From assembly GCA_021816455.1 (NCBI GenBank), contig JAKAXU010000029.1, forward strand, positions 1 to 38,072: a DNA stretch of 38,072 nucleotides, read 5' to 3'. The position numbers and the translations under genes are program-made. Source of the DNA: Acidobacteriota bacterium (GTDB lineage: Bacteria; Acidobacteriota; Terriglobia; Terriglobales; Acidobacteriaceae). How positions within the stretch are numbered: position 1 is the first letter of the stretch; every line of letters starts with the position of its first letter. This document shows, in pieces, positions 2,904 to 22,677 of this stretch. Under the pieces are notes generated by a model that made no database searches, was not told the DNA's origin, and worked only from the letters and a program-made list of their open reading frames with translations.

Positions 2904-3908
2904 ATGAGCAGATATGGAGTCATTGTCTGGCTGGGCTTGGTTCTTCTTGCGGTGAGCGCGGGAGCGCAAACGGCAGTGACGACTTCCGGTGGCACAACCA
3001 ATGCGGTCCCCGTCTTTACGGGAAGTGGGACAGTTGGAAACTCGCCGATCTCAGTTTCTGGAGGTAATGTGGGGATTGGAACGACGAGTCCTCAGTATCA
3101 ACTGGACTTATCAGGTAACGAACATATTAACACTGGAATTATCATCTTCTCGACTTCTAATTTAGACCAAGGCGGAAATACTGGCCTACAGGCAAATCCC
3201 TTTGGCTGGACCCGCATAGATCCGAATGGCAGTCGCTTCCTGATGCCTGTGCCAGCATCGCGCGTAGCAACTGCCGACAACATCCTGGATATAGAACGAA
3301 CGGATACATGGGAGCACCTAATGGAGCTTCATGCAGACGGCAGTGCTTTTTGGCTTGGCAATGTTGGCATCGGTACAACGGCACCAGCCTACAAACTTGA
3401 CGTGGCGGGCCAGATACGGACGTCATCGGGAGGGATTGTGTATCCGGATGGGACGATGCAGGTGACGGCGTTTATTCCAGCCAACTGCGGTGCGGACTAT
3501 GCGGAGTCAGTGGGGGTGAGCGGCAGGCGTGAGCAGTATGGTCCTGGTGATCTGCTGGTGATTGATCCCGATCATGCGGGCAAGTTTCTCCGGTCGGATC
3601 AGGCGTACTCGACGATGGTGGCCGGAATTTATTCGACCAGGCCGGGATTTGTAGGAAGGCTGCATCCGGCCAGCGATCCGGCGAGCAAGGCGGAGGTTCC
3701 GATGGCGATGGTGGGACGAGTGCCGACGAAGGTGAGCGCGGAGAACGGTCCAATCCATGTTGGGGATCTGCTGGTGACCTCGACAACGATGGGTTATGCG
3801 ATGAAGGGCACGGATCGCAGCCGGATGCTGGGTGCCGTAGTGGGCAAGGCGCTCGGCTCACTTGACAGCGGCAAAGGCGTCATCGAAGTTCTCGTCACCT
3901 TGCAGTAG
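2904..3908 (+). CDS. Exported tail-fibre-like repeat protein
   Basis: 334 residues from ATG 2904, chosen because AAAGGAG at 2887-2893 lies about 10 bases upstream; GTG 2901 is an in-frame alternative. The N-terminus is a typical Sec signal peptide (IVWLGLVLLAVSAGAQ). Two copies of the tail-fibre-type motif NVGIGTT(S/A)P-x-Y-x-LD(L/V)(S/A)G start near residues 55 and 153, as in phage fibre and endosialidase-like surface proteins. The C-terminal ~140 residues begin at GADYAESVGV and include GPGDLLVIDP and HVGDLLVTSTT; this is a recurrent C-terminal domain of acidobacterial surface proteins, function unknown to me. It likely acts in the periplasm or on the cell surface. No catalytic motif is visible. 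Confidence 0.75.
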   Translation: MSRYGVIVWLGLVLLAVSAGAQTAVTTSGGTTNAVPVFTGSGTVGNSPISVSGGNVGIGTTSPQYQLDLSGNEHINTGIIIFSTSNLDQGGNTGLQANPFGWTRIDPNGSRFLMPVPASRVATADNILDIERTDTWEHLMELHADGSAFWLGNVGIGTTAPAYKLDVAGQIRTSSGGIVYPDGTMQVTAFIPANCGADYAESVGVSGRREQYGPGDLLVIDPDHAGKFLRSDQAYSTMVAGIYSTRPGFVGRLHPASDPASKAEVPMAMVGRVPTKVSAENGPIHVGDLLVTSTTMGYAMKGTDRSRMLGAVVGKALGSLDSGKGVIEVLVTLQ

Positions 3909-4039
3909 CGAGTAAAGATGTAGGAGCATCCGGGACATCTCGCACTTTTTAACTCTCTTGCGATGGATTCGATTCTTGTATGTGCGTCGTGATCGGCCTC
4001 GTTATTTCTAATGCAACCGGGAGTTCCCCGGCTTAGCTG

Positions 4040-4081
4040 GGGTGGCAGTAGAACTTTGAGAATTCCAGGAATATGCCACCC
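4040..4081 (+). terminator. Possible terminator after the surface-protein gene
   Basis: GGGTGGCA (4040-4047) pairs perfectly with TGCCACCC (4074-4081). A T-rich run (TTTGTTTTTC, 4091-4100) lies about 10 bases past the stem. The 26-base loop is long and the T-run is not immediate, so this is a weak candidate. Confidence 0.3.
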
Positions 4082-4147
4082 GCTGTTGCTTTGTTTTTCT
4101 GAAGCTTATTGTTGAATGAGCCTTGCGCTGTTGCTGTTGCTTTTCAC

Positions 4148-4207
4148 CGGTTGCGATCAGGCCCCTTTGAGGGGCCAGCAACCGAAAGCCTCCGGCTCTG
4201 CCGGAGG
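4148..4207. repeat. Two-hairpin structured element (REP-like or ncRNA)
   Basis: Two adjacent perfect hairpins fill 60 bases. The first is two-tiered: CGGTTGC (4148-4154) pairs with GCAACCG (4178-4184), and inside it GGCCCC (4160-4165) pairs with GGGGCC (4171-4176) over a TTTGA loop. Four bases later CCTCCGGC (4189-4196) pairs with GCCGGAGG (4200-4207) over a TCT loop. No T-run follows, so this is not a standard terminator. No credible ORF explains it. It is the main content of the ~485-base gene-free stretch 3909-4393, which otherwise holds the weak terminator and the half-site cluster listed separately. Confidence 0.55.
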
Positions 4208-4280
4208 ATCCTTACTATCATTCCATTTCCGGCAAATCCTGTATTTCGCAGTAACACAAGTTTCAAATACCGCCGCCCGC

Positions 4281-4386
4281 TTGACAACGACGCGTTCTGC
4301 ATAAAGACGGACGCAGTAGATACTTCTACAGCATTTTTCTATTGATAATTTTCGCTACAGGTGTCATTCTGTAGGCGACTCTACAG
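4281..4386 (+). promoter_or_regulatory. Putative promoter/operator region of the restriction-Kiwa operon
   Basis: A perfect -35 hexamer TTGACA is at 4281-4286, but its best -10 (CATAAA, 4300-4305) is too close at 13 bases; GATAAT at 4344-4349 is another possible -10 without a good -35. Downstream lies a cluster of related half-sites: GTAGA-TACT-TCTAC (4316-4329), CTACAG at 4326-4331, 4355-4360 and 4381-4386, and CTGTAG at 4369-4374, forming an inverted pair with its 4355 neighbour. The repetition just upstream of the operon start suggests a repressor or controller binding region. The regulator is not identified. Confidence 0.4.
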
Positions 4387-4393
4387 ATTTCAG

Positions 4394-4999
4394 ATGCTCC
4401 TAAGTAAAGTTTGTTCCATTCTCTCCGGTTATACCGCGCGCTGTCGGCTTGAACCTGCCGCGTTAGGCGGAGTTCCGGCAATTCAGCTGCGCGACTTGCC
4501 AGCGAGTGGCAGGCTCGATCTGTCGCGATTGACGCGAGTCCAGCTGGGCGATGTTCAAGATCGCCACCTTGTGCACGCTGGCGATGTGCTCTTTCGGTCG
4601 CGTGGTGACCGGAACACCGCAGTCGCTGTGGGTCCAGACCTCCGAGACGCAGCTGTAGCGGTACTCCCACTCATGATCCTCCGCCCCAAACCCTACATGG
4701 TTTCGGGCGAGTATCTGACGTGGGCTATCAATCACTCGACGACCCAGCGCTATTTCGACAGCGTTGCTCGCGGTACGAAACTGCGAATGGTGTCGCGTGC
4801 GAGTCTTGAACATCTCGATCTGGATATCCCCGACATCGAAACGCAGCGAAAGATTGTTGCCATTGCCGCGCTGGCCGACCGGGAGCAGGCGCTCTCCGTT
4901 CAGGCTGCCAGGTTGCGGAGAGAACTGACCAGCAAAATTCTCGGCGAGCGCGCGAAACGGCCCCGGCATGCTGCCACAACGGAAAGGATTACGAAGTGA
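4394..4999 (+). CDS. Single-TRD HsdS-like specificity subunit
   Basis: 201 residues from ATG 4394; the frame can be extended to GTG 4361, but the family-like N-terminus (LLSKVCSILSGYTAR) begins at 4394. Only one target-recognition domain is present: VPAIQLRDL, GDVLFRSRG, LMILRPK, YLTWAINHS and the Gln-rich IETQRKIVAIAALADREQ leading into one C-terminal helix. Normal HsdS has two TRDs, so this is a half-length subunit that could dimerise, or modulate the full HsdS encoded downstream. It is complete at both ends, not obviously truncated. Its stop overlaps the hsdM start (GTGA, 4996-4999), indicating translational coupling. No good ribosome-binding site precedes it. Confidence 0.75.
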   Translation: MLLSKVCSILSGYTARCRLEPAALGGVPAIQLRDLPASGRLDLSRLTRVQLGDVQDRHLVHAGDVLFRSRGDRNTAVAVGPDLRDAAVAVLPLMILRPKPYMVSGEYLTWAINHSTTQRYFDSVARGTKLRMVSRASLEHLDLDIPDIETQRKIVAIAALADREQALSVQAARLRRELTSKILGERAKRPRHAATTERITK

Positions 5000-6519
5000 C
5001 CGACCAACTCACACAAAACCAGGTCAACCAGACGGCTTGGGCGGCGTGCGACACCTTCCGAGGTGTCGTCGATGCAGGCCAGTACAAAGACTACATCCTG
5101 GTGATGTTGTTTCTGAAATACATCTCCGATCACTGGAATGACCATGTTGAGACCTACCGCAAGCAATACGGTGGTGACGATGCCCGCATCCGGCGCAGGC
5201 TGGAGCGCGAACGTTTCATTCTCCCCAAGGGGTCGAGCTTCTATGACCTATACGAGCGGCGCAACGAACCCAACATCGGTGAGTTGATCAATATTGCCCT
5301 CGAGCAGATCGAAGACAAGAACCGCGCCAAGCTCGAGGGCGTGTTTCGGAACATCGACTTCAATTCCGAATCCAACCTTGGCCGCGTCAAGGACCGCAAC
5401 CGCCGCCTCAAAAACCTGCTGGAGGACTTCGCCAAGCCGGCGCTCGATCTGCGCCCCTCGCGCGTGACCGAGGACATCATCGGCGAGTGCTACATCTACC
5501 TGATCTCCCGTTTTGCGTCGGATGCCGGCAAGAAGGCCGGCGAGTTCTACACTCCTGCGGCCGTCTCCCGACTGTTGGCAAAGCTGGTCGCGCCAGTGCC
5601 GGGAGATACGATCTGTGATCCAGCGTGCGGATCCGGTTCGCTGCTGATTCGCGCCTCCGAAGAGGTTGGTTCCGACAATTTCGCTCTCTATGGCCAGGAG
5701 GTGAACGGCGCCACCTGGGCCCTGGCCAGGATGAATATGTTCTTGCACGCCAAGGATGCCGCACGCATCGAGTGGTGCGACACGCTGAACAGCCCCTCGC
5801 TGATCGAGGGCGATCACCTGATGAAGTTCGACATCGTCGTGGCGAATCCCCCATTTTCGCTCGACAAGTGGGGTGCCGAACATGCCGCCGCCGACCAGTA
5901 CAAGCGATTCTGGCGCGGCGTTCCGCCCAAGTCGAAGGGTGACTACGCATTCATCACCCACATGATCGAGATCGCCCGGCGGCAAAGCGGTCGCGTCGCC
6001 GTCATTGTTCCCCACGGCGTGCTCTTCCGCGGCGGCAGTGAGGGCAAAATTCGCCAGGCGCTCATCGAAGAGAACCTGCTCGACGCCGTTGTCGGCCTGC
6101 CCGCCAATCTGTTCACTACCACCGGCATTCCGGTCGCCATCCTGGTTTTTGACCGCTCCCGCGAGCAAGGCGGCGCAAACGAGAACCGCAAAGAGATACT
6201 CTTTATCGACGCGAGTCGGGAGTTTACGCCCAGCAAGACGCAGAACCTGATGTCCGATGCGCAGATTCAGAAGATCCTCGATACCTACCGCACGCGCGCC
6301 GAACTCGACAAATACTCGCACCTGGCCACGCCCGAGGAGATCCAGGAGAACGAGTACAACCTCAACATCCCCCGCTACGTGGATACCTTCGAGCCGGAAG
6401 AGGAGATCGATGTGGCCGCGCTGCAGAAAGAGATCAACCGCATCGAGGGCGAGCTGGCAGAGGTCCGTGGCCGCATGGCCGATTACCTCAAGGAGTTGGG
6501 CGTCCATGTCGAACGGTGA
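4996..6519 (+). CDS. hsdM: Type I restriction-modification DNA methyltransferase subunit
   Basis: 507 residues, the usual HsdM length. It methylates adenine in the site read by HsdS, using S-adenosylmethionine, in an M2S complex. The N-terminal helical HsdM_N domain covers about residues 8-140 (NQTAWAACDTFRGVVDAGQYK). GEFYTP is followed by motif I DPACGSG at 208-214 (SAM binding) and motif IV NPPF at 284-287 (catalytic), so the N6-adenine signature is complete. A C-terminal coiled-coil-like segment (EIDVAALQKEINRIEGELAEV) would contact HsdS. The GTG start at 4996 has AAAGGA at 4983-4988, 7 bases upstream. It overlaps the preceding single-TRD gene by 4 bases and the following rhuM by 14. Confidence 0.95.
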   Translation: MTDQLTQNQVNQTAWAACDTFRGVVDAGQYKDYILVMLFLKYISDHWNDHVETYRKQYGGDDARIRRRLERERFILPKGSSFYDLYERRNEPNIGELINIALEQIEDKNRAKLEGVFRNIDFNSESNLGRVKDRNRRLKNLLEDFAKPALDLRPSRVTEDIIGECYIYLISRFASDAGKKAGEFYTPAAVSRLLAKLVAPVPGDTICDPACGSGSLLIRASEEVGSDNFALYGQEVNGATWALARMNMFLHAKDAARIEWCDTLNSPSLIEGDHLMKFDIVVANPPFSLDKWGAEHAAADQYKRFWRGVPPKSKGDYAFITHMIEIARRQSGRVAVIVPHGVLFRGGSEGKIRQALIEENLLDAVVGLPANLFTTTGIPVAILVFDRSREQGGANENRKEILFIDASREFTPSKTQNLMSDAQIQKILDTYRTRAELDKYSHLATPEEIQENEYNLNIPRYVDTFEPEEEIDVAALQKEINRIEGELAEVRGRMADYLKELGVHVER

Positions 6520-7519
6520 GCTGATTCTTTTCACCAGCGAAGACGGCGTAGCCCGCATCCAGTTGCGAGCTGAAGGTGGCACGGTCTGGCTCTCCCTGAA
6601 CCAGATTGCGGACCTGTTCGGAAGAGATAAGTCCGTGATTTCGCGTCACATCAAGGCGATCTTCGACGATGGCGAGCTGGCTGCGGAATCAGTTGTTGCA
6701 CGTTATGCAACAACTGCCGCCGACGGCAAGACCTATCAGGTGGACTACTACAACCTGGAGATGATCCTCGCTGTCGGCTACCGAGTCCGTTCTGCGCGCG
6801 GCGTCGAGTTCCGCCGGTGGGTCTCCACCACGCTCAAGGACTATCTGGTCAAGGGCTTCGTCCTTGACGACAAGCGGCTCAAAGACCCGGCCTGGGATTA
6901 CTTCGATGAGCTGCTGGAGCGCATACGGGAGATTCGCGCTTCAGAGGCGCGTTTCTACCAGAAGGTACGCGAGATTCTGGCGCTTAGCGAGGACTACGAT
7001 CCCCGCTCTCAGGCGGCGCAGATCTTTTACGCTACCATTCAGAACAAGATGCTGCACGCCGTCACCGGCCACACGGCGGCCGAGCTGATCGCCGCCCGCG
7101 CCAACGTCGGCTTGCCCAATATGGGCCTGACGGCGTGGAAGGGCGCGCGTGTGCGCAAGAGCGACGTCACCACGGCCAAGAATTATCTGGTCGAAAAAGA
7201 GATCAGCGAGTTGAACCTGATCGTCACCATGTTCCTCGATACCGCCGATCTGCGCGCGCGCCGCCGCCAGACGATGAAGCTTACAGACTGGGAGGTGGTT
7301 TTAGATGGCTTCCTGCGGTCGAATGAACTGCCGCTGCTGAGCAATGCCGGAAGCATCTCCGCCGCGCAGGCCGAACGAATCGCCTTCGAATGCTACGAAA
7401 ACTTCGACGCACAACGCCGGGAACAGCTTGCCGCTAGCGAGCCGAGCGAAATTGCGGAACTCGAGCGGATCGCCGAGCAGACAAAAAAGCTGATCAAGCG
7501 AGGCAAAAATGAAAAGTAA
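6506..7519 (+). CDS. rhuM: RhuM-family protein
   Basis: 337 residues from ATG 6506; AAGGAG (6490-6495) lies 10 bases upstream inside the hsdM end. The N-terminus is a DNA-binding-like domain shared by the RhuM family (TVWLSLNQIADLFGRDKSVISRHIK, about residues 26-50), then FRRWVSTTLKDYLVKGFVLDDKRL, and a C-terminal helical part (ARFYQKVREILALSEDYDP, FYATIQNKMLHAVTGHTAAEL). The family was named for a Salmonella pathogenicity-island gene, and its biochemical role is not established; members recur inside type I restriction operons. Position between hsdM and hsdS, with overlaps on both sides, points to an accessory or control role in this system. That role is inference. Confidence 0.88.
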   Translation: MSNGELILFTSEDGVARIQLRAEGGTVWLSLNQIADLFGRDKSVISRHIKAIFDDGELAAESVVARYATTAADGKTYQVDYYNLEMILAVGYRVRSARGVEFRRWVSTTLKDYLVKGFVLDDKRLKDPAWDYFDELLERIREIRASEARFYQKVREILALSEDYDPRSQAAQIFYATIQNKMLHAVTGHTAAELIAARANVGLPNMGLTAWKGARVRKSDVTTAKNYLVEKEISELNLIVTMFLDTADLRARRRQTMKLTDWEVVLDGFLRSNELPLLSNAGSISAAQAERIAFECYENFDAQRREQLAASEPSEIAELERIAEQTKKLIKRGKNEK

Positions 7520-8594
7520 GTGGAAGACAGCGACACTCGGATCTTTAGTAACACTGCAACGAGGATATGACTTAACCGATGCAGAGCGGTGCCTTGGATC
7601 AGTGCCAGTGCTTGGTGGCGGAGGACCGAATGGCACGCACTCAATAGCTCGTGTCAAAGGCCCAGGCGTAGTCATCGGACGTAGTGGTGCTGGTTTTGGA
7701 AAGGCATGGTGGACTGATCAGGATTATTGGGCTCATAACACAGTTTTGTTTGCTAAAGACTTCAAGGGCAATGACCCGCGGTATGTATATTACGTCCTGT
7801 CGAATATTGATTTCACAAAGTTCAACTCAGGCGGAGCGCAGCCGTCTCTGAATCGTAATTTTATTTATCCGATTGAATTGGCTATTCCACCTTTGGGGGA
7901 GCAACAAAAAATCGCAGCCATTATGCGGGCCTGGGATGAGGCCATCGACAAGCTGGATTCGCTTTCACGCAAGCTGGAAAGATTGAACACCGCATTACGC
8001 CTGAAGTGCTTTGAGAAGCAATTCGCTCGTGAGAAGAGCGTAACTAAGGCATCGAGAATCTTCGAGCCCGTTTCAGAACGGGCACGACCGGATCTTCCCC
8101 TACTGGCTGTAATGCAGGATTTGGGGGTTGTGCGCCGCGATGAGTTGGATCGCCGTGTGGCCATGCCAGACGGTGACATTTCCAGCTACAAAGTTGTTCG
8201 TCCTGGCGACTTCGTCATCAGCCTGCGCTCCTTCGAAGGTGGTCTGGAATATTCAAAAGTGCTCGGCCTAGTGAGCCCGGCCTACACGGTCCTCCGGCCG
8301 ATTCGCGAGATCAATAGCGACTACTATCGCCACTTCTTCAAATCGCGCAGTTTTATCGGCCGCCTCGACAAATTGATCTTTGGCATTCGCGACGGCAAGC
8401 AGATCGCATTCCGCGATTTTGGCGATATGCGTATTCCGAATCCAAGTATTAAGGTTCAGGAGTCCGACGCAGCGGCGCTCAACCAACTGAGTTCCCTCAT
8501 TGAACTCAACCAGAGGCGCAAGCAGGCGCTCGAAAAGCAAAAGCGCGGCCTGATGCAGAAGCTACTAACCGGCCTATGGAGGGTGAAATGCTGA
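7509..8594 (+). CDS. hsdS: Type I restriction-modification specificity subunit (two TRDs)
   Basis: 361 residues. It chooses the bipartite DNA target for methylation by HsdM and cleavage by HsdR. The first TRD (residues ~1-145) ends with IPPLGEQQKIAAIMRAWDEAIDKL, the start of the central spacer helix (~145-180). The second TRD runs to about 310, and the last helix (LIELNQRRKQALEKQKRGLMQKLLTG) ends with the family-typical GLWRVK. It is shorter than many HsdS, mainly in the second TRD, but has both helices. It overlaps rhuM by 11 bases and kwaA by 7. The first TRD DNA is more AT-rich than the flanking genes, in keeping with TRD exchange. Confidence 0.92.
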   Translation: MKSKWKTATLGSLVTLQRGYDLTDAERCLGSVPVLGGGGPNGTHSIARVKGPGVVIGRSGAGFGKAWWTDQDYWAHNTVLFAKDFKGNDPRYVYYVLSNIDFTKFNSGGAQPSLNRNFIYPIELAIPPLGEQQKIAAIMRAWDEAIDKLDSLSRKLERLNTALRLKCFEKQFAREKSVTKASRIFEPVSERARPDLPLLAVMQDLGVVRRDELDRRVAMPDGDISSYKVVRPGDFVISLRSFEGGLEYSKVLGLVSPAYTVLRPIREINSDYYRHFFKSRSFIGRLDKLIFGIRDGKQIAFRDFGDMRIPNPSIKVQESDAAALNQLSSLIELNQRRKQALEKQKRGLMQKLLTGLWRVKC

Positions 8595-9109
8595 ACTGGT
8601 TCGCCAAACTCCAGTTAACAAGCACAGCCATAGCGCCAGTGCTCCTGACTTATGCCTGGGTCGCTTACCGCACTTGTGCATACCGCCAAGCACTTGTTCT
8701 GATACTGACCTGCACTGCTCTCGTCACCGTCTGCCTCATTATGCTTTCAGGTTGCAAAAAAAATCTCGAACGTGTTCCGTTTTCAATGATCAGTGCCGAA
8801 GCGGCTGATCGAGAAAACATTGGCTTTCTGCTGCTGTACTTACTTCCCTTATTCACCAGCTCCTTTTCGGCGCTTAACTGGCAGGTGTGGATTCCCGCCA
8901 TAGCGATTTTCGCCGCCGTGGTCGGAACAGGCTACGGCTACCACTTCAATCCACTTCTCGGCCTGATGGGATGGCATTTTTACAAGGTGGGAACGAAAGA
9001 GGGCGTGACATACGTCCTCATTACCAAAAAACATCTCCGAAATACCACCGAGACAATCGAAGTCGGTCAGCTTACGGAGTATATCGTGCTCGATTTGGGA
9101 GAAAAGTGA
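8588..9109 (+). CDS. kwaA: KwaA-like membrane protein of a Kiwa-type defence pair
   Basis: 173 residues from ATG 8588, preferred over ATG 8576 because GGAGG (8579-8583) is 5 bases upstream. Hydrophobic segments suggest about four membrane helices: around TAIAPVLLTYAWVAY, ALVLILTCTALVTVCLIML, FLLLYLLPLFTSSFSAL and WIPAIAIFAAVVGTGYGY. A soluble C-terminus follows (NPLLGLMGWHFYKV, VTYVLITKKHLRNT, QLTEYIVLDL). Kiwa consists of a membrane protein KwaA and a cytoplasmic DUF4868 protein KwaB; the membrane part is thought to sense phage infection at the envelope. The call rests on topology, the C-terminal motif as I recall it, and the adjacent DUF4868-like gene. It overlaps the hsdS stop (ATGCTGA). 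Confidence 0.68.
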   Translation: MLNWFAKLQLTSTAIAPVLLTYAWVAYRTCAYRQALVLILTCTALVTVCLIMLSGCKKNLERVPFSMISAEAADRENIGFLLLYLLPLFTSSFSALNWQVWIPAIAIFAAVVGTGYGYHFNPLLGLMGWHFYKVGTKEGVTYVLITKKHLRNTTETIEVGQLTEYIVLDLGEK

Positions 9110-9110
9110 T

Positions 9111-9989
9111 ATGCCGCAGAACCTGTTTGCAGCTTGCCGCATGGATGGTGAACTGTCCGCGAAGCGCGTGCGCCTCGATGCCACAGTACAGCAGGCGATT
9201 GAGAACATCTTCGATCAACAAGAGGCCCAGTTCCGAGAAGGTGTCACCGAAGAGGTTGACTTCGATGGGAGCTGGATGCCGGATGACGAAGAGTTTCTGA
9301 CCATCGATGTGCCTGCTGAGGCGGCCATATTCGAGGCGACAATTCGTGGTAACGCTATGGCCGTTCCCGATCTTGACGCGGCGCACTTCGCAGAGGAAGG
9401 GATTAAAGCCCTCTTCACGGGTACCGTGCTCAACGGTGCTGCAAAGGTACTCGTACAACGCTTCACTTCACAGCAGGTGCTGTCTAGACGCTTTTCGCTT
9501 CTTCAGCAGGGTAATGCTTTCCGCCAACTAACGGACGCCGCATTCACTCTCGATAACAGCCTGACCTGCATCGTTGAAGACGGAAAGATTAAATTCAAGA
9601 GCATGCAGAAGCTCCGGTCGATTATCGACATGGTGGAGCTTTATCGAGCAGCAACTGACGCAGAAGTACAGGCCTTTGCTGGCCATACAAGTTTGGCCGT
9701 CTGGAATGTGCCTGAATTTGTGGCGCTGACGAATCAGACCAGTCGTAAATTGATTCACGCAGTAGCAGCAAGCGGCACCCTGGACAATTACACGCCGGCT
9801 GAAATTCAGACCGCAGCACAATCTACGGGGCTGACCGTCACCATCGAGAATGGGAAAGTTGAAATGCCACGGGAGCATGTCGGGATTAAGGCTCTGCTCC
9901 AGTTTCTGAACGAGAGTCGCTACTCTGGTCCACTGTCAAATCAACCCTATGTGACCAATTCTCAGCGAAGAGTAAACGGAGCAAGATAA
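9111..9989 (+). CDS. kwaB: KwaB-like DUF4868 protein of a Kiwa-type defence pair
   Basis: 292 residues, close to the usual KwaB size, starting one base after the kwaA stop with GGGAG upstream. The central and C-terminal parts match the DUF4868 pattern as I know it: LVQRFTSQQVLSRRFSLL, FRQLTDAAFTLDNSLTCIVEDG, IKFKSMQKLRSIIDM, then HAVAASGTLDNYT, GLTVTIENGKVEMPR and a final FLNESRYSGPLS...YVTNS. In Kiwa, KwaB is the cytoplasmic effector that binds DNA and blocks phage replication or late transcription. No transmembrane segment is seen. Because it sits between hsdS and hsdR, it is presumably co-transcribed with the restriction enzyme. Assignment is by pattern recognition, without a profile search. 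Confidence 0.7.
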   Translation: MPQNLFAACRMDGELSAKRVRLDATVQQAIENIFDQQEAQFREGVTEEVDFDGSWMPDDEEFLTIDVPAEAAIFEATIRGNAMAVPDLDAAHFAEEGIKALFTGTVLNGAAKVLVQRFTSQQVLSRRFSLLQQGNAFRQLTDAAFTLDNSLTCIVEDGKIKFKSMQKLRSIIDMVELYRAATDAEVQAFAGHTSLAVWNVPEFVALTNQTSRKLIHAVAASGTLDNYTPAEIQTAAQSTGLTVTIENGKVEMPREHVGIKALLQFLNESRYSGPLSNQPYVTNSQRRVNGAR

Positions 9990-9993
9990 CTCC

Positions 9994-12900
9994 ATGAGCT
10001 TCGACGCCGGCGAAAAGCACCAATCGCAGGTCCCCGCCATCCAGTTGCTGGTGGCGATGGGCTACAAGCCCCTGAGCCAGTCAGAGGCCGTCGCCCTGCG
10101 CGGCGGACGGTTGCGCAATGTGGTGCTGGACGAAATCCTCGCGGAGCAGCTTCTCAAGATCAACCGCTTCATCTTTCGTGGGCGCGAGTATGCCTTCGAC
10201 CTGGAGGATGCGCACGAGGCCATACGCCGGCTAAAGCCGACCCCGGACCGTCTGAAAGGCCTTAAGGGAACGAATCAGGACATCTACGACACGCTCGTTC
10301 TGGGCACAACCATTGCAAAAACAATTGACGGCGACAGCAAAAGTTTTTCCTTTCGCTTCGTCGATTGGGAGCGGCCAGAGAACAATGTCTTCCACGTGAC
10401 TGCCGAGGTTTCCGTAGAACGGACCGGCAGCATCCAGACGAAGCGCTGCGATATCGTTGCTTACGTCAATGGCATTCCATTCGTCGTCATCGAGAATAAG
10501 CGGCCCACTGAAAGCCTGAAGAAAGCCGGAAGCCAGCTCATTGGTTATCAGAGCGAAGACTTCATTCCGCATCTCTTCCACTTCGCTCAAGTGCTGCTGA
10601 CAATGAACCGCCAGGAGGCCCGCTACGCGACCGTGGGAACCCCGCAGAAGTTTTGGCAGACCTGGCGCGATGAAGAGGACACGGACGCGGTGATCGCCCC
10701 ATTCGCGAACCGCCATCTGACTACCGCCGAGACGGACGTGATCTTTTCGGGCGATTTTGCGGCGGCGAGACCATACTTTGAAGCAATGGCGGCCGAGGGA
10801 CAACGGGTGGTGACCGCGCAAGATCGGGCACTCTATTCGCTTTGCAGACCCGAGCGCCTGCTCGACCTGGTGAGGCGCTTCACGGTATTTGAGGGCGGCA
10901 GCCGAAAGATCGCCCGGCATCCGCAGTTTTTCAGTATCCGCGAGGCCGTCCAGCTTGTAAAGCAGTTCGATCCGAAAGGTAACCGCAAGGGCGGCGTCAT
11001 CTGGCACACGCAGGGGGCGGGGAAATCGCTGACCATGGTCATGCTGGGGCGCGCGCTCGTTCTGGACAGGGAGATTCCCAATCCGCGCATCCTCATCGTC
11101 ACGGATCGTGACGATCTCGACGTGCAAATCAGGGATACGTTCAAATCCTGTGATATGCAGCCGGCGCGCGCAACCAGCGGCACCCATCTGCTCGATCTCA
11201 TCCACGACAAGCGTCCGCTGATCACCACCATCATCAACAAATTTGATTCCGCGCTGCGCGGCGCGAAAGCCGCCGATGCCGATGCCAACATTTTTGTTCT
11301 GGTGGATGAAAGCCATCGCACCCAGACGGGACGCAAGGGAAGCTATAGCCAGTTCGCAGTGAAAATGCGCCGTATGTTGCCGAAGGCCTGCTACCTGGGC
11401 TTCACGGGCACTCCGCTGCTCAAGAAGGAAAAGAACACTCTCTCGACCTTTGGCGGGCTCATTCACCGTTATGCCATCGATGAGGCGGTTGCGGACGGCG
11501 CCATCGTGCCACTTCTCTACGAGGGCCGCCTTGTCGATCAGCGAATTACTGCCGATGCGATTGACCGCTGGTTTGACAAGATCAGCGTGGGACTGACGGA
11601 CAAGCAGAAGGCCGATCTGAAGCGCAAATTTTCGCGGTCGAATGCACTGTCAAAGACGTCGCAGGCAATTCGCGCTAAGGCCTTCGATATTTCTGAGCAC
11701 TTCCGTCAGAACTGGCAGGGAACGGGGTTCAAAGCCCAGCTCGTCGCTCCCTCAAAGGCCGCGGCAGTGCGATTCAAGGAAGTGCTCGATGAGATCGGAC
11801 ACGTAACCAGCGAGATCGTGATATCGCCACCCAATGAGAATGAGGGTAACGAGGAAGTCGACAAGGAAGCGAAAGATCTCGTTCGGAAATTCTGGGACGA
11901 GATGATGAAGCGCTTCAAGACGGAGGATGAATACAACCGTCAGCTTACCGCCGCTTTCAAGAGTTCTGGTGATCCGGAGATACTCATCGTCGTTTCAAAG
12001 CTCTTGACTGGCTTCGACGCGCCACGCAACACGGTGCTCTATGTGTGCAAATCACTCCGCGAACATAACCTACTGCAGGCGATCGCGCGCGTGAATCGAC
12101 TTTATGAGGAGGATGGGACAGAGAAGCAATTCGGTTTCATCATCGATTATGAGGGCCTTCTCGGCGAGTTGGACAGCGCGCTGACTACATACAGCGCATT
12201 CGAGGGCTATGACTCGTCGGACCTTGCCGGAACCGTGCATGACGTGCGAGAGGAAATCCGCAAGCTGCGGCAGTTGCACGATCAGTTGTGGGATCTCTTC
12301 AAGTCAGTCAAAAACAAAAGAGACATGGAGCAGTTCGAGCAATTCCTCGCCGACGAGCCCATCCGACACGACTTCTATGAACGACTGCGTGCCTTCGGGC
12401 GATGCCTGCACATCTCGATTTCGTCAGATAAGCTCCTGGACGTCTTCTCTGAGTCTGATGTAGAGCGGATGAAGCGGGATTGGAAACAGTTCTCCGAACT
12501 GAGGCGATCCGTTCAGCTCCGCTATCAGGAAGTAGTTGATCTGAACGAGTTCGAACCGAAGATTCAGAAGCTGCTCGATGACCATGTTGTCTCAATGCCC
12601 GCTGAGATCATCATTCCCCTGGTGAACATCAATGATCCCGATGCGCTCAAGGCCGTGGTGAAAGAAGCGGGAGTCTCCGACGCATCGAAGGCCGATCGGA
12701 TCGCAAGCGCTACGCGCAGGACTATCACTTTGAAGATGGAGGAGGATCCGACCTTCTACAAGCGCTTCTCCATTCTGCTTGAAGAGACAATTCGGAGTTA
12801 CAGGGCAAAAAGAATCTCTGAGCGGGACTATCTGAAAAACGTGATCGATCTCGCCGGCAAAGTTGCCCGAAAGGACCGGGGAACCAACGTTCCGGATCCT

Positions 12901-13209
12901 ATCAAGGGGAATGATGACGGACAGGCATTTTACGGGATTCTCCAGGGAGCGCTCGTTGGATCAGATGGGCAGCCGGTCAGCGAGGTGGAGACCGCCCAGA
13001 TCGCGCTCGCGATTATCGACATCATCAAGGCACATCATATTGTCGACGTGTGGACGAACGAGGTAGCGCAGAACAATATGCGAAATGCGGTTGATGACTA
13101 CTTTTTTGATGTCCTGCGTGACCGGCGAGGGATACAGCTGCCCATCGAGATAATGGATGAGATCGACCACAAGATCATGGACTTGGCACGCGCGAGGTTC
13201 CCTGGATGA
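9994..13209 (+). CDS. hsdR: Type I restriction endonuclease subunit R
   Basis: 1071 residues, normal HsdR length. It is the ATP-driven translocase and nuclease of the restriction complex. The N-terminal PD-(D/E)xK nuclease shows D153 and E167-x-K169 (within VVIENKRP). The superfamily 2 motor follows: Walker A GAGKS at 341-345, motif II DESH at 438-441, GFTGTPLL shortly after, and a late helicase motif AIARVNRLY with the Arg fingers. The C-terminal helical region (from ~760) would dock on M2S. All key residues are present, so it should be active. GGAGC lies about 12 bases before ATG 9994, 4 bases after the kwaB stop. Confidence 0.96.
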   Translation: MSFDAGEKHQSQVPAIQLLVAMGYKPLSQSEAVALRGGRLRNVVLDEILAEQLLKINRFIFRGREYAFDLEDAHEAIRRLKPTPDRLKGLKGTNQDIYDTLVLGTTIAKTIDGDSKSFSFRFVDWERPENNVFHVTAEVSVERTGSIQTKRCDIVAYVNGIPFVVIENKRPTESLKKAGSQLIGYQSEDFIPHLFHFAQVLLTMNRQEARYATVGTPQKFWQTWRDEEDTDAVIAPFANRHLTTAETDVIFSGDFAAARPYFEAMAAEGQRVVTAQDRALYSLCRPERLLDLVRRFTVFEGGSRKIARHPQFFSIREAVQLVKQFDPKGNRKGGVIWHTQGAGKSLTMVMLGRALVLDREIPNPRILIVTDRDDLDVQIRDTFKSCDMQPARATSGTHLLDLIHDKRPLITTIINKFDSALRGAKAADADANIFVLVDESHRTQTGRKGSYSQFAVKMRRMLPKACYLGFTGTPLLKKEKNTLSTFGGLIHRYAIDEAVADGAIVPLLYEGRLVDQRITADAIDRWFDKISVGLTDKQKADLKRKFSRSNALSKTSQAIRAKAFDISEHFRQNWQGTGFKAQLVAPSKAAAVRFKEVLDEIGHVTSEIVISPPNENEGNEEVDKEAKDLVRKFWDEMMKRFKTEDEYNRQLTAAFKSSGDPEILIVVSKLLTGFDAPRNTVLYVCKSLREHNLLQAIARVNRLYEEDGTEKQFGFIIDYEGLLGELDSALTTYSAFEGYDSSDLAGTVHDVREEIRKLRQLHDQLWDLFKSVKNKRDMEQFEQFLADEPIRHDFYERLRAFGRCLHISISSDKLLDVFSESDVERMKRDWKQFSELRRSVQLRYQEVVDLNEFEPKIQKLLDDHVVSMPAEIIIPLVNINDPDALKAVVKEAGVSDASKADRIASATRRTITLKMEEDPTFYKRFSILLEETIRSYRAKRISERDYLKNVIDLAGKVARKDRGTNVPDPIKGNDDGQAFYGILQGALVGSDGQPVSEVETAQIALAIIDIIKAHHIVDVWTNEVAQNNMRNAVDDYFFDVLRDRRGIQLPIEIMDEIDHKIMDLARARFPG

Positions 13210-13922
13210 ATCGGGAACAGGGACGGATCGAATACGGCGGCCACGCGATCGAGTTTGCCGTGGTGCGGCGCAAGAGAACAACTCTCGAAATCGCCGTTGA
13301 GCCCGATGCGACGGTAGTGGTTGCAGCTCCGCTCGGCACCCCCTTTGAGGATATAGCGGAAAAAGTCCGTAAACGCGCTTCATGGGTTCAGCAGCAGCAG
13401 CATTTCTTTCTGCAATTTGTCCCAAGGACGCCTCCACGGCGCTACGTTCCTGGCGAGACCCACCTCTACCTTGGCCGGCAATACCGCCTCAAAGTAGTTT
13501 CCGGCGACCGGCCAGGAGTCAAGCTCTTGCGAGGATTCATGCTGGTGGCGAGCTCGTCTCCCAAACAGACCGATGTGACCCGGGATCTCGTGAATGCGTG
13601 GTACCGTGCTCGCGCCCACAAATGGTTTGCGGATCGTCTTGAAGCGAATCTGCGCCGATTCCCAAACCCCGAACGAGTTCGTCCAAAGGGGCTGATTATC
13701 CGCCATCTGCGTCAGCGATGGGGATCGATGTCATCCGGGCACAGAATGGTCTTGAACCAGCGGCTCATCCAAGCTCCGGTTTACGCAATCGACTATGTGA
13801 TCACACATGAGCTGTGCCATGTTGCCGAACCCAGCCACCGGCCTGCGTTCTTCCGACTCTTGGATCGCGTCCTTCCTGATTGGCAGAGCCGAAAGCGTCG
13901 GCTGGAAGAGATAATGTCATGA
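13206..13922 (+). CDS. DUF45 (YgjP-like) zinc metallopeptidase
   Basis: 238 residues, ATG 13206 overlapping the hsdR stop (ATGA). The C-terminal half has the zinc-protease motif HELCH at 201-205 followed by PSHRPAFF, which supplies the third His ligand in this family, and WGSMSSGHRMVLNQRLI before it, diagnostic of DUF45/YgjP proteins. The N-terminus (EFAVVRRKRTTLEIAV) is the usual beta-rich lead. The substrate is unknown. DUF45 genes often lie directly after hsdR in type I operons; a role in turning over HsdR or another partner has been suggested by this linkage only. Translational coupling to hsdR makes a shared role likely. Confidence 0.9.
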   Translation: MNREQGRIEYGGHAIEFAVVRRKRTTLEIAVEPDATVVVAAPLGTPFEDIAEKVRKRASWVQQQQHFFLQFVPRTPPRRYVPGETHLYLGRQYRLKVVSGDRPGVKLLRGFMLVASSSPKQTDVTRDLVNAWYRARAHKWFADRLEANLRRFPNPERVRPKGLIIRHLRQRWGSMSSGHRMVLNQRLIQAPVYAIDYVITHELCHVAEPSHRPAFFRLLDRVLPDWQSRKRRLEEIMS

Positions 13923-14149
13923 ATGGCGCGCTCGCAATTGGTACAGAGCGGAGTAATGGCGTCATCAACAACTGGTGTCAAGGGCGGAGTAAAACCAGGC
14001 CACTGTGGCCTATTTTTGCTCTGGCGCTTATATGCGCATCTATGACTCTGTCTCTTATCCCATTACGTCGGCGGGGAGCTGTCACCATAGCGCCGTCGCA
14101 TGCTGTCACTGACGCGTACGAGCGTTCACACCCTGACATCCGGGCATTT

Positions 14150-14539
14150 TCAGCTCAGACGGCGAACTCGCGACAGTCGTCCAAAGGCTCTGTCAAAGGT
14201 GATGATCTCCTTGACGCCGGCATCGAAGGATATTTCCGCTATCAGATGGTCTGCAAAACCAACCGTGCCCTTGCGGGCTGCTTCCAGCGCTTTCCGGACC
14301 AGGGTTGGTGATTCGACCGTGACGCCTCGCGCCCGAAGCAATCCGTCGAGCGCTTGCAGGACTCTATCCTTTTCCCATCGACCGCGAAGCACCCATGAGA
14401 GTTCTGCAAATACGATGAGCGGGACAAAGATTCCATCTGCGGAGCGAGCCTGTGCCAGAGCCGATCTCGCTTTCCTCGTCTGAGTTTGGTCATCGTTGAG
14501 CAAAGCGCGTGCCCAGACATTGGTATCAGCAGCGAGCAT
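14150..14539 (-). CDS. vapC: VapC-type PIN-domain toxin
   Basis: 129 residues from ATG 14539, chosen because AGGAGG (14548-14553) is 8 bases upstream; GTG 14545 is also in frame. It is a PIN-domain RNase with the conserved acidic residues: D5 in LAADTNVW, E in FAELSWVL, D in GFADHLIAE and D in ITFDRAFGRL. VapC toxins cut tRNA or rRNA when free of their antitoxin. The start overlaps the vapB stop, so the two are co-translated. It lies tail to tail with the restriction operon and may help keep the island in the cell. Confidence 0.9.
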   Translation of the reverse strand: MLAADTNVWARALLNDDQTQTRKARSALAQARSADGIFVPLIVFAELSWVLRGRWEKDRVLQALDGLLRARGVTVESPTLVRKALEAARKGTVGFADHLIAEISFDAGVKEIITFDRAFGRLSRVRRLS

Positions 14540-14811
14540 CACCACTGCCTCCTGGCCTTCGCCTCATTCATCTCCGCGAATGACATGACGTGTTCCGCCT
14601 TACCGCCTTCATCCGCCATCTGCCACAGGTCTTCGAGGTCATACAGAACTCGGTCAACCTGGACGGGGCCGGTCGAAGGCATGCTGAAGCGAATTCGACT
14701 GCCAGTCTGGATGCCGAGGCGCTTCCGCAACTCCTTGGGCAGTGTGACCTGACCCTTCGAGGTTACTTTCGCTTCAACGGTTGTAGACAAATTGCGAGAA
14801 GTCGGAGTCAT
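14539..14811 (-). CDS. vapB: AbrB/VapB-type antitoxin
   Basis: 90 residues. The start at 14811 was chosen over 14913 because a strong ribosome-binding site (GGAGGAG read on the minus strand, about 14819-14826) sits just before it. The SpoVT/AbrB swapped-hairpin DNA-binding domain is plain: AKVTSKGQVTLPKELRKRLGIQTGSRIRF (residues ~14-43). The C-terminal part (EDLWQMADEGGK, FAEMNEAKARRQW) would wrap the toxin. Such antitoxins repress their own operon as a complex with the toxin. Confidence 0.9.
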   Translation of the reverse strand: MTPTSRNLSTTVEAKVTSKGQVTLPKELRKRLGIQTGSRIRFSMPSTGPVQVDRVLYDLEDLWQMADEGGKAEHVMSFAEMNEAKARRQW

Positions 14812-17489: not shown

Positions 17490-17828
17490 ATGGCTCGCGG
17501 AGATGTAGCAGGAAAAAGCGGCGCACAGATGCCGGACAAAGGCAGCGCACGTGCTACCGCGGCAGGCCCCAGCAATCCCGACAACGCCACCAAGCAAGTT
17601 CTCGCAACTCTGCGCAACGGGGTCGACTGCGCAGATCAGTGCAGGGTGCTACTGACGCTGGCGGACGCTGCTCGTGTACTGCAGATATCCGCTGATGATC
17701 TCGTGCACCTGATGCGGACAGGGCAGCTGACGTCGGTGGTGATCGCTGGGCAGGAACTGGTGCCCGTACGCGAGCTTGTCGAGCTGATCGAGGATTACAC
17801 CGCAATTGCGAAAAGGAGCACAAGATGA
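17490..17828 (+). CDS. Small HTH (excisionase-like) protein
   Basis: 112 residues from ATG 17490, fixed by AGAGGAGG at 17476-17483, 6 bases upstream; the longer frame from 17394 has no such site. The C-terminal half is a winged-helix/MerR-like helix-turn-helix of the excisionase type (LLTLADAARVLQISADDLVHLMRTGQLTSVVIAGQELVPVREL, ~50-92); the first 40 residues are low-complexity. The stop overlaps the next gene (ATGA at 17825), so it is co-translated with the recombinase. It probably bends or marks DNA for that recombinase, or regulates the operon. Confidence 0.7.
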   Translation: MARGDVAGKSGAQMPDKGSARATAAGPSNPDNATKQVLATLRNGVDCADQCRVLLTLADAARVLQISADDLVHLMRTGQLTSVVIAGQELVPVRELVELIEDYTAIAKRSTR

Positions 17829-19279
17829 GTCACAAACTATTGATCCACGATTTTGCGGATGGAGAGGCAGCCTGCATCTTTTGTTGCAGGCTGCTACCAG
17901 CCCATGCGACGTGGCCAGGCAAGCGTGTCCACGTCTGCGCCGACCTAAAGTGTATTAGTGATTTTGAGGCCGCTGCGACGCGACTTAAGCAGCTTGCGCC
18001 CGGCAATGTCTTGATCGGCCCGGACGCCGTGATGTGCGCCGGGCCGAAATGCGGCCGCATGGTGCCCGGCGGCGTATATAAGGCGGGGTCACGAGATCGA
18101 TGCTGTTCCGCGGTGTGCTGGTCCAGGAAAGACGGTAACTCCACCTCGCTGTACGTCTGCAGCTGTGGCTGCGGCACAAAATTTCGTGGGAACAGCTCGC
18201 TGTCACGCCGCAAAGGCCGAGCGTACCTTGACTTTACGCATCGGGCGCAGCATCTACTTGCGCTACACGTGGCCGAGTGCGGCTTGTTGGGGCAGGTAGC
18301 CCTCGATTACCTGCGAACGTTCGTGCCAATTCACTACCGGAACTCGAAATGTGCGAAAGCTACAATATTCCCGTTTTTCAAGTGGTGCCGCGAAAATGCC
18401 ATCTCCAGCCTCGCGGAAATCAGGCCGAAGACAATCACTCAATACCTGGCATGGTGCAAGCAACACAAGGTCAAAACCCCGCATTACCGGGTTGCCGCCC
18501 TGTCAGTCTTTTTTGACTGGGCCATCGCGGAGGAGCGCTATAGCTATGGGAATCCAGTCATACACCGCATCCACGCTCAGCGCAGGTCGCAGTCTGCTCC
18601 GAGGCCGCTCTCCGATTCGGAGTTGGCGCAGATGTGGCGCATGCTGGAAGCACAGGATGATCCACGACTGCTGTTTGCGGCCTCCATTGCGGAAGAGGCT
18701 GGTCTCAGAATTGGTGAAATCTGCAATTTGCGCGTCGCCGACATCGACGTTGAGGGACTGCAGGTTTTTGTGCGGCTCCCCAACAAAAGCAACAGAGAGC
18801 GGTACTCGTTGTTTGGGCCGCGCACCGCAGAGTTCGCTCGCACGATCCTGCGTTCGAGGCCCCGTGACATGAAGCAGGATCATATTCTTTGGAACGCTGT
18901 AAACGGGCCGATGGCATGCGGCACTCTGCGCAGACAGTTACGGATGGCGCTGTGTAAGACCTACCAGGGGAAATCGCTCCGCGACGAAGGCTTTTCATCC
19001 TGGTCTACGCACCGTCTGCGCCACAATATGGCGACATCCATGCGTCGCGGCGGTGCCAACACCGGTTCAATCATGGCACTTGGTGGATGGCGGTCGATGG
19101 ATGCTGCGAGCCACTACGTGGAGATGGTCACTGAGGATACACAGCGCGAGTATGCCGCCGCGATGGCGAAGGCACAAAATGCCAAGAAGCAAAACGAATC
19201 CGTTGTGTCGACTGCACTTACTCCAGCCCAGCTGCTCGATCGGGTTGGGAAACGGAAGATCGAGAGCCACTGCGCATAA
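17825..19279 (+). CDS. Tyrosine recombinase with N-terminal zinc-finger region
   Basis: 484 residues. The first ~140 residues hold many paired cysteines (CIFCC, CAGPKCG, CCSAVC, CSCGCG), like zinc ribbons, and are an unusual addition. A SAM-like core-binding domain follows (AKATIFPFFKWCRENAISSL...). The catalytic domain has R295 (GLRIGE), a Lys in LPNKSNRERYS, H396-x-x-R399 (HRLRH), Trp422 in the box III position where His is commoner, and the nucleophile Y431 (ASHYVEM). All catalytic positions are filled, so it should cut and rejoin DNA. It is coupled to the small HTH gene before it, and its stop codon lies inside a perfect 12-6-12 inverted repeat. Confidence 0.88.
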   Translation: MSHKLLIHDFADGEAACIFCCRLLPAHATWPGKRVHVCADLKCISDFEAAATRLKQLAPGNVLIGPDAVMCAGPKCGRMVPGGVYKAGSRDRCCSAVCWSRKDGNSTSLYVCSCGCGTKFRGNSSLSRRKGRAYLDFTHRAQHLLALHVAECGLLGQVALDYLRTFVPIHYRNSKCAKATIFPFFKWCRENAISSLAEIRPKTITQYLAWCKQHKVKTPHYRVAALSVFFDWAIAEERYSYGNPVIHRIHAQRRSQSAPRPLSDSELAQMWRMLEAQDDPRLLFAASIAEEAGLRIGEICNLRVADIDVEGLQVFVRLPNKSNRERYSLFGPRTAEFARTILRSRPRDMKQDHILWNAVNGPMACGTLRRQLRMALCKTYQGKSLRDEGFSSWSTHRLRHNMATSMRRGGANTGSIMALGGWRSMDAASHYVEMVTEDTQREYAAAMAKAQNAKKQNESVVSTALTPAQLLDRVGKRKIESHCA

Positions 19280-19321: not shown

Positions 19322-20254
19322 ATGGCATACACGATTTCGATTGGACAATTCGAGCAATCGATCCCTGCATTCTGCGAATTTGTCACCGCGAAGGGTAGCC
19401 CTAAGACGGGCGTAGCCTACGCCTGCGACCTCAGGCAATATGCCCAGTACGTTCGCTCGTTGCCGGTACTGGTCGATGGCGCACTGAGCACAAGCCTTGC
19501 ACGTCAGTACTTCTCCTTTTTGCGCGAAGCAAAGAACGAAGATTCGACCATCATTCGCAAACTCGCCGCACTTTCGAGTTATTGTGATTTTCTTCGCGCC
19601 GAGACAGTACCCTCACTCCCCAACCCCTTCCTCAGGCTGCCGCTCAAGCGGAGTCTTAGAGCCAACAAAGAGCCTAAACCTGTGGATACACTTCTGCTCG
19701 AGCTCATTCTGAGCGGGATTGACAATCTGCGCGACCAGGCGCTTTTTCGTCTCCTGCTGGCCACCGGACTGCGGATCAGCGAGGTCCACGCGCTTAATCG
19801 CGACAGCATCTCAATCCACGAAGAGCGGAATGGTGATGTACGCGTCATCACCGGCTCCGGTGAAATTGTTGGCAAAGGAAACAAGAGGCGGCGCTTTTTT
19901 GTCGATGAAGCAACACTCATCGCTTATGCCGGGTATGTTACCTCGCGCAGCGATGCATCTGCGGCGCTGTTTGTCTCGGCGCGAGGAACGCGTCTTTCGG
20001 TGCGGGGTATCCAGTATCGGTTGGCGCACTGGTGCGAGAAATTTGGCGCACCCCACATCAACGTACACCGGTTGCGCCATACATTCGCGACGGTACTCGC
20101 GAACAATGATATCGACTCAGTGGCGCTGCGGCACCTGATGGGCCACGCGTCATTTACGACGACGATGCAGTACTTCAAGCTGCACGACAAAACAATCCGG
20201 CGTCAGTATCACGCCGCGATGGGGAGGGCAAAGAGGCGGAACCCCAGCACATAA
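19322..20254 (+). CDS. XerC/D-like tyrosine recombinase
   Basis: 310 residues, the size of XerC/XerD. The N-terminal core-binding domain (IPAFCEFVTAKGSPKTGVAYACDLRQYAQYV) is followed by the catalytic domain with R151 (GLRISE), a Lys in GKGNKRRRFF, H249-x-x-R252 (HRLRH), H275 (MGHASF) and nucleophile Y284. All are present. It follows the first recombinase by 42 bases, across the inverted repeat, and was probably transcribed with it. Paired recombinases may act together as XerCD do. It differs in box III (His versus Trp) from its partner. A role in host chromosome dimer resolution is less likely because of the island context. Confidence 0.9.
   Translation: MAYTISIGQFEQSIPAFCEFVTAKGSPKTGVAYACDLRQYAQYVRSLPVLVDGALSTSLARQYFSFLREAKNEDSTIIRKLAALSSYCDFLRAETVPSLPNPFLRLPLKRSLRANKEPKPVDTLLLELILSGIDNLRDQALFRLLLATGLRISEVHALNRDSISIHEERNGDVRVITGSGEIVGKGNKRRRFFVDEATLIAYAGYVTSRSDASAALFVSARGTRLSVRGIQYRLAHWCEKFGAPHINVHRLRHTFATVLANNDIDSVALRHLMGHASFTTTMQYFKLHDKTIRRQYHAAMGRAKRRNPST

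Positions 20255-22600: not shown

Positions 22601-22677
<77 letters not shown>

Follow-up and report, generated by a model that had tools for sequence, protein, structure and literature searches.

Kiwa, the KwaA-KwaB pair, was reportedly described by Zhang et al. in Cell in 2025. We analysed such a pair located between hsdS and hsdR of a type I restriction-modification operon, in a 38,072-base stretch of DNA from an Acidobacteriota bacterium of the Acidobacteriaceae (GCA_021816455.1, contig JAKAXU010000029.1, positions 1 to 38,072), hereafter the window. In the studied Kiwa, a lattice is built from KwaB dimers and inner-membrane KwaA tetramers. This complex moves to the injection site, and KwaB binds the incoming DNA and halts replication and late transcription, with no cutting (PMC12904381). 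Another account gives RNA polymerase inhibition as the trigger and a RecBCD-dependent pathway (PMC11514479). The pair in the window has in common with the studied Kiwa the two genes, the KwaA family and the KwaB fold. It differs in being nested in a restriction operon, in the low identity of KwaB (10-12%) and in a KwaA that falls under the equivalog cut-off.

Other defence genes embedded in type I operons are known. PrrC lies, like the Kiwa of the window, inside such an operon, EcoprrI (PMC12707154, PMC3874168). Unlike Kiwa, which is mostly found unlinked, it is always hsd-linked and is silenced by the enzyme; it is called "invariably linked" to hsd, whereas RloC, which does not need the enzyme, is rarely linked (PMC3874168). 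DarTG2, in a type I operon of enteropathogenic Escherichia coli, is a full second defence system at the same hsdS-hsdR junction, with a zinc metallopeptidase gene following, and its authors term the site a "potential recombination hotspot" (PMC12255303). Its cargo differs in being a toxin-antitoxin system and its operon in having a regulator, rptR, ahead of it; the likeness noted is one of arrangement. TgvAB, in the Vibrio cholerae VPI-2 type I operon, and RloF of Campylobacter jejuni are also embedded among hsd genes, but belong to GmrSD-like / DUF262 type IV restriction (PMC11411939). In Vibrio, KwaA and KwaB co-occur across strains with type I R, M and S (co-occurrence cluster 308). The passages on this cluster hold a table row, from which gene order, slot and mechanism are absent, and the same nested arrangement may lie behind it (PMC12409351). 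Defence genes lodged within other systems are also the broad theme of the "guilt-by-embedding" candidates that a 2024 preprint by Payne et al. reportedly put forward, as cited in PMC12255303, PMC11411939 and PMC12988326. The hsdS-hsdR junction as host of other defence systems (DarTG2, TgvAB, RloF) is already in print; for Kiwa inside a type I operon, no description was found in the open-access literature among the matches listed.

A probable cargo slot between hsdS and hsdR

We consider it likely that the hsdS-hsdR junction is a cargo slot, that a pool of cassettes is exchanged between the operons of one lineage, and that the slot of the window holds kwaA-kwaB. The features concerned are:

7509 to 8594, + strand: hsdS (PF01420, 1.6e-20), its 3' end (~8529-8587) being the left edge of the slot
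8588 to 9993, + strand: exchangeable cassette, in place of which close relatives have other cargo (blastn)
8588 to 9109, + strand: kwaA, Kiwa membrane protein, first gene of the cassette (PADLOC PDLC00221, 6.2e-74)
9111 to 9989, + strand: kwaB (DUF4868), DNA-binding subunit of Kiwa, second gene of the cassette (PADLOC PDLC00234, 6.4e-114)
9994 to 13209, + strand: hsdR (TIGR00348, 3.1e-136; PF18766; PF04313), its start codon being the right border of the slot

Close operons were searched for by HsdR alone (E<=1e-150). This gave 16 operons with HsdRs 72-94% identical to that of the window: six from genomes (overlapping draws of 398, 399 and 397) and ten from plasmids, the best 10 of 12 with 60-80% identity, of 448 matches. 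Another operon (L047, genome G560) was excluded as too distant, with an HsdR identity of 37-40%, a fragmented hsdS and nothing else before hsdR. Kiwa was found at the hsdS-hsdR junction in none of the 16 operons. Their slots contained the following, named by the record annotation wherever a protein was not scanned:

DUF6119/TIGR04141: 4 of 16 operons
small open reading frame (ORF) and protein kinase: 3 of 16
HAD protein: 3 of 16, of which one that was scanned (L045) matches PADLOC candidate PDC-S34
DUF3800: 2 of 16
Shedu and HAD: 2 of 16
Shedu and DUF3800: 1 of 16
empty slot: 1 of 16 (L049; 4-base overlap of hsdS and hsdR, HsdR 76% identical)

The two cores with 94% HsdR identity to the window carried DUF3800 (L043) and the kinase (L044) instead of Kiwa. 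In the HsdR tree, these two and the window formed one group (100/100 support) with three different cargos. Near-identical cores carried different cargo at the same junction, which is the pattern of an embedded-defence slot.

The borders of the exchange were mapped by blastn of positions 3900-14100 against 15 of the 16 operons (L040 left out). On the right, similarity resumed exactly at 9994 in seven of 15 operons and within 6 bases in 13, the exceptions being L035 (10008) and L049 (9977). With L043, similarity reached 8587 and began again at 9994 (88.6% identical DNA on the right); with L044, it reached 8572 and likewise began again at 9994. The second half of hsdS was common to L044 and the window (86.8% over 7931-8572), with different cargo, and at the blastn level L043 had neither this half nor the cargo in common with the window.

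We then placed the cargo on an HsdR tree of 18 operons (L006, L012, L047 and L050 left out). The cargo labels (8 states) changed at least 13 times, compared with a mean of 12.8 for shuffled labels (238 of 300 shuffles <=13). Considering only the gene next to hsdR (6 states), there were 11 changes, compared with a shuffled mean of 11.6 (126 of 300 shuffles <=11). There was no sign of cargo following HsdR descent, the labels being scattered like shuffled ones. Copies of the same cargo had mostly diverged at least about as far as their HsdRs, consistent with an old pool that has been reshuffled inside the lineage. For example, the HAD copies were 69-83% identical and their HsdRs 76-83%, the KwaB and KwaA of the window and L009 were 69 and 73% identical with HsdRs at 79%, and L035 and L037, with HsdRs 97% identical, had DUF6119 proteins only 35% identical. 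The main exceptions, with cargo clearly closer than HsdR, were the Kiwa of L012 against the window and L009 (KwaA +25 and +28 points, KwaB +8) and the kinases of L044 and L048 (+7 points).

The pool would comprise Kiwa, Shedu, HAD/PDC-S34, the small ORF with its PD-T4-6-like kinase, DUF3800 and DUF6119; defence genes, known or candidate, account for several of these. PADLOC gave no match for DUF3800, the small ORF or DUF6119, so that a defence role is suggested by their company only. We flag DUF3800, DUF6119 and the small ORF (orf153) with its kinase as possible defence cassettes. The latter recurs as a 153-aa ORF without family match followed by the kinase in L044 (10964-12276), L048 (9829-11366) and L041 (7307-8847), the kinase frame being shorter in L044 than in L048 (284 vs 359 aa). 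The PADLOC candidates PDC-S05, PDC-S34 and PDC-M24B were all present in these type I operons. Seven distant plasmid operons were also opened (L053-L057, L060, L061). Their slots held Fic, a PDDEXK nuclease, NucS with Abi, YecA, or DUF3800 with a small ORF, and two of the seven had no annotated gene there.

Identity of the Kiwa pair

The first-pass annotation, made from the letters of the window, had described a four-transmembrane protein and a DUF4868-like protein with the make-up of Kiwa. By profile and predicted fold, 8588-9109 and 9111-9989 are kwaA and kwaB of a Kiwa system, with anti-phage activity, supercomplex formation and DNA binding as predicted properties. Both proteins were recognized by the PADLOC Kiwa profiles given above, and a transmembrane protein unrelated to KwaA was ruled out by the PDLC00221 match. 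KwaB also scored just over the cut-off of Pfam PF16162 (28.5 vs 26.3 bits, residues 125-273), in agreement with the DUF4868 call. A four-sequence KwaA profile matched the solved KwaA chains 9mrg and 9o0i (1.1e-7); the KwaB sequence profile matched no chain among the solved structures. The predicted KwaB fold (mean pLDDT 86.5) had six solved KwaB chains as its sole matches at E<=0.001 (E 9.7e-11 to 5.5e-9, TM 0.54-0.58, 10-12% identity over the structural match), including 9mrx_D, 9mtn and 9nyu. KwaA stayed below the narrow NCBIfam equivalog NF041622 (42.2 vs 100 bits) and KwaB matched no NCBIfam model, which points toward a diverged branch of the family.

That KwaA is a membrane protein held up, with a looser count of segments. 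In a crude hydropathy scan, the KwaA of the window had hydrophobic stretches at 35-53 and over 78-118, and an N-terminal one showed in relatives only, so that 3-4 transmembrane segments is a fair statement.

Kiwa inside and outside the slot elsewhere

A survey for the order hsdS-kwaA-kwaB-hsdR, as proposed in the first-pass annotation, recovered it in four further loci, ruling out that the order is unique to this strain: (i) L009; (ii) L012, a Sphingomonadales metagenome-assembled genome; (iii) L006, a Bartonella plasmid; and (iv) L050, a genome from the window's own family. In L050 a DUF6978-DUF1828/1829 pair shared the slot with Kiwa. Its KwaB was 18% and its HsdR 29% identical to those of the window, i.e., another Kiwa subfamily in a distant type I operon, and it looks like a separate case of Kiwa in the slot. 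In L012 a dGTPase-type defence gene (7758-9095, PDLC02374, 1.6e-144) was stacked with Kiwa, giving two cassettes in one slot.

Records of KwaB relatives numbered 33: the window and three other genomes, 18 loci, one plasmid, two phages, six viral contigs (some much alike) and two Rhizobium plasmids, several loci ending at contig ends. Kiwa was in the slot in five of them, spanning five loci and at least three HsdR groups, and was not seen there in the other 28. The slot position is, by this count of records, a minority habit of Kiwa. In searches of L003-L032 and L050-L052 with HsdM and HsdR profiles, the only match besides the slot cases was an N6-methylase beside the Kiwa of L014. The two Rhizobium plasmids were scored for type I genes from their annotation, and in one of them Kiwa adjoined a type I operon without being inside it. 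A search of the viral contigs with a single protein found no relative; a four-sequence alignment found six. Among plasmids, a search with one Vibrio KwaB piece found the Bartonella plasmid only. In L011 (489-4888), Kiwa lay 36 bases 3' of a type III res gene, and it may recur in other restriction operons. L014 (3628-5012) had kwaB and kwaA on opposite strands with overlapping ends, unlike the usual pair on the same strand.

The four slot Kiwas of the window, L009, L012 and L006 were rejected as a single clade inherited with the operon by the approximately unbiased (AU) test (p 0.006, 16 of 33 records, L050 left out), for a group named after an earlier tree had been seen and with long branches in play. 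A KwaB-only tree (20 rows) was too open on this question.

Expression, exchange and the relation to the restriction enzyme

The pair had been placed between hsdS and hsdR with a 7-base overlap and gaps of 1 and 4 bases, and all these coordinates proved correct. The hsdS stop codon ends at 8594 and the kwaA ATG that fits the homologues is at 8588. A ribosome-site-like GGAGGG (8578-8583) precedes this ATG within hsdS. One base separates kwaA (end 9109) from kwaB (start 9111), and four bases separate kwaB (end 9989) from hsdR (start 9994). A crude scan of 8500-10000 found nothing promoter-like or terminator-like on the sense strand within the slot; it performed no better than on shuffles, and host promoters may differ. 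Since the genes overlap or almost touch and the GGAGGG of kwaA lies inside hsdS, kwaAB is likely co-expressed with the restriction enzyme. The first reading had taken such a tie in expression as given.

Exchange would probably proceed by homologous recombination, through the hsdS 3' end or sequence further left and through hsdR on the right. Transcribed together with the operon from its promoter, KwaA would sense the phage at the inner membrane, and KwaB would bind incoming phage DNA and block replication and late transcription, as in the studied Kiwa. Acting independently of HsdR, Kiwa would form a second barrier against phages missed by the restriction enzyme.

Joint action with the restriction enzyme had also been suggested. 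KwaB might work on DNA that HsdR exposes, or Hsd might restrain Kiwa until anti-restriction proteins release it. PrrC, which sits inside a type IC locus, is indeed freed when its enzyme is inhibited (PMC12707154, PMC3874168). The five slot-borne Kiwas in at least three HsdR groups, and the Vibrio cluster joining KwaA, KwaB and type I R, M and S (PMC12409351), also speak for such coupling. However, a needed partner would be expected to be more faithfully linked, as PrrC is. The operons found by HsdR carried other cargo in 15 of 16 cases and none in one, including the DUF3800 and kinase cargo of the 94% cores and the empty 76% relative, and most KwaB records lay outside the slot, which is not the invariable hsd linkage of a PrrC-like guard. 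The slot proteins were similar in length to those of the non-slot L010 (KwaA/KwaB 173/292 vs 173/283 aa) with no added domain seen, and the slot Kiwas were rejected as one clade by the AU test, with its post hoc group. The suggestion found no support here, and we regard coupling as improbable. The linkage of Kiwa resembles that of RloC and not that of the enzyme-needing PrrC, so that independence of HsdR is more likely. About as improbable, in our view, is a kwaAB transcribed on its own and merely located in the operon. The sharp borders of the cassette and its G+C content (0.50-0.53, below 0.60 in hsdM and 0.56 in hsdR), as if acquired, would fit it; against it are the overlap with hsdS, the GGAGGG inside that gene, the lack of a + strand promoter-like match in the crude scan of 8500-10000 and the low G+C content of hsdS itself (0.517).

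Several points weigh against a slot with a self-sufficient Kiwa. The whole case for it was built from sequences. The left edge, i.e., the last ~60 bases of hsdS, was matched by blastn in only five of 15 operons, with LMQKLLTG-like HsdS ends recognized in the remaining operons at the protein level. The shuffle test was weakly powered, given 18 operons and few cases in each state, and the promoter and terminator scan yielded no more than shuffles did. Kiwa kinship partly tracked the HsdR groups, the window going with L009 and L012 with L006, as would also arise from lasting co-inheritance. The evidence for Kiwa in the lineage pool comes from the window and L009, both reached through KwaB. Finally, TgvAB without the rest of its cluster gave 10-100-fold less protection against several phages; the TgvAB pair nevertheless protects when the type I core is missing, and a cluster with a mutated hsdR nuclease protects like the intact one (PMC11411939), so that the surroundings can help without restriction taking part. 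On balance, we favour the slot, with Kiwa a rare and probably self-sufficient occupant.

A more far-reaching version is unlikely, although a little less so than the two alternatives above. Here the operon would be a chassis, with a core of half-size HsdS, M, S, R and peptidase and two ports, hsdM-hsdS (RhuM or nothing) and hsdS-hsdR, that swaps old lineage-wide cassettes, sometimes together with hsdS specificity domains, and that improves Kiwa. If so, one recombination would alter both the DNA recognised and the back-up defence, and the timing, dosage or release upon blocked restriction given by the chassis would make Kiwa better than it is alone.

With the slot, Kiwa joins the defence systems known inside type I restriction operons, and for one operon lineage sharp borders, an empty form and a cargo list are added. 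One sharply bounded site offers a natural comparison: near-identical cores differ in carrying Kiwa, kinase or DUF3800, and close relatives have HAD, Shedu, DUF6119 or an empty slot. It allows a direct test of whether embedded systems co-operate or just have expression and mobility in common.

Other genes of the operon and its surroundings

The operon of the window reads half-size hsdS, hsdM, rhuM, hsdS, kwaA, kwaB, hsdR and a ygjP/sprT-like peptidase gene, all on the + strand. The genes outside the slot and its flanks are:

4361 to 4999, + strand: half-size HsdS with a single target-recognition domain, opening the operon (PADLOC Specificity_I, 1.4e-21)
4996 to 6519, + strand: hsdM (PF02384, 2.1e-101; PF12161, 1.3e-28)
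6506 to 7519, + strand: RhuM family gene, PADLOC candidate PDC-S05 (PF13310, 6.7e-103; PDC-S05, 3.8e-141)
13206 to 13922, + strand: YgjP/SprT-like zinc metallopeptidase, conserved end gene of the operon (PF01863, 6.1e-51)

HsdM, HsdS and HsdR, encoded in one operon, all exceeded their Pfam cut-offs (PF02384, PF01420 and PF04313/PF18766), and HsdR scored 455.6 bits against NCBIfam TIGR00348 (cut-off 284.55). By its gene families the operon is a type I restriction-modification operon, with predicted restriction and methylation activity. The half-size HsdS was under the Pfam cut-off (13.3 vs 22 bits) and its real start is perhaps 4394. The close operons were likewise headed by a homologue of it. 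The lineage operon has this gene besides the full hsdS, with an alternative specificity or a regulator as candidate roles.

The RhuM gene (PDC-S05, 6506-7519) occupies a second variable junction, hsdM-hsdS. Ten of 18 close operons had it, and its presence changed at least five times on the HsdR tree of 18 operons. In two distant operons this junction held PDDEXK or GIY-YIG genes.

Upstream of the operon, an ORF at 2328-2738 had an RHS repeat match (3e-6). Directly after the operon there was a PIN-domain gene (14150-14545, - strand), and Mameliella and Paracoccus plasmids also had a PIN gene after the peptidase. Further downstream, three tyrosine recombinase genes followed in a row (17825-19279, 19322-20254 and 20927-22120), and then a tRNA-Met (22601-22677, - strand), which may place the operon on an integrated island. 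On a Methylocystis plasmid (L036), three integrase genes were also found downstream of the same operon.

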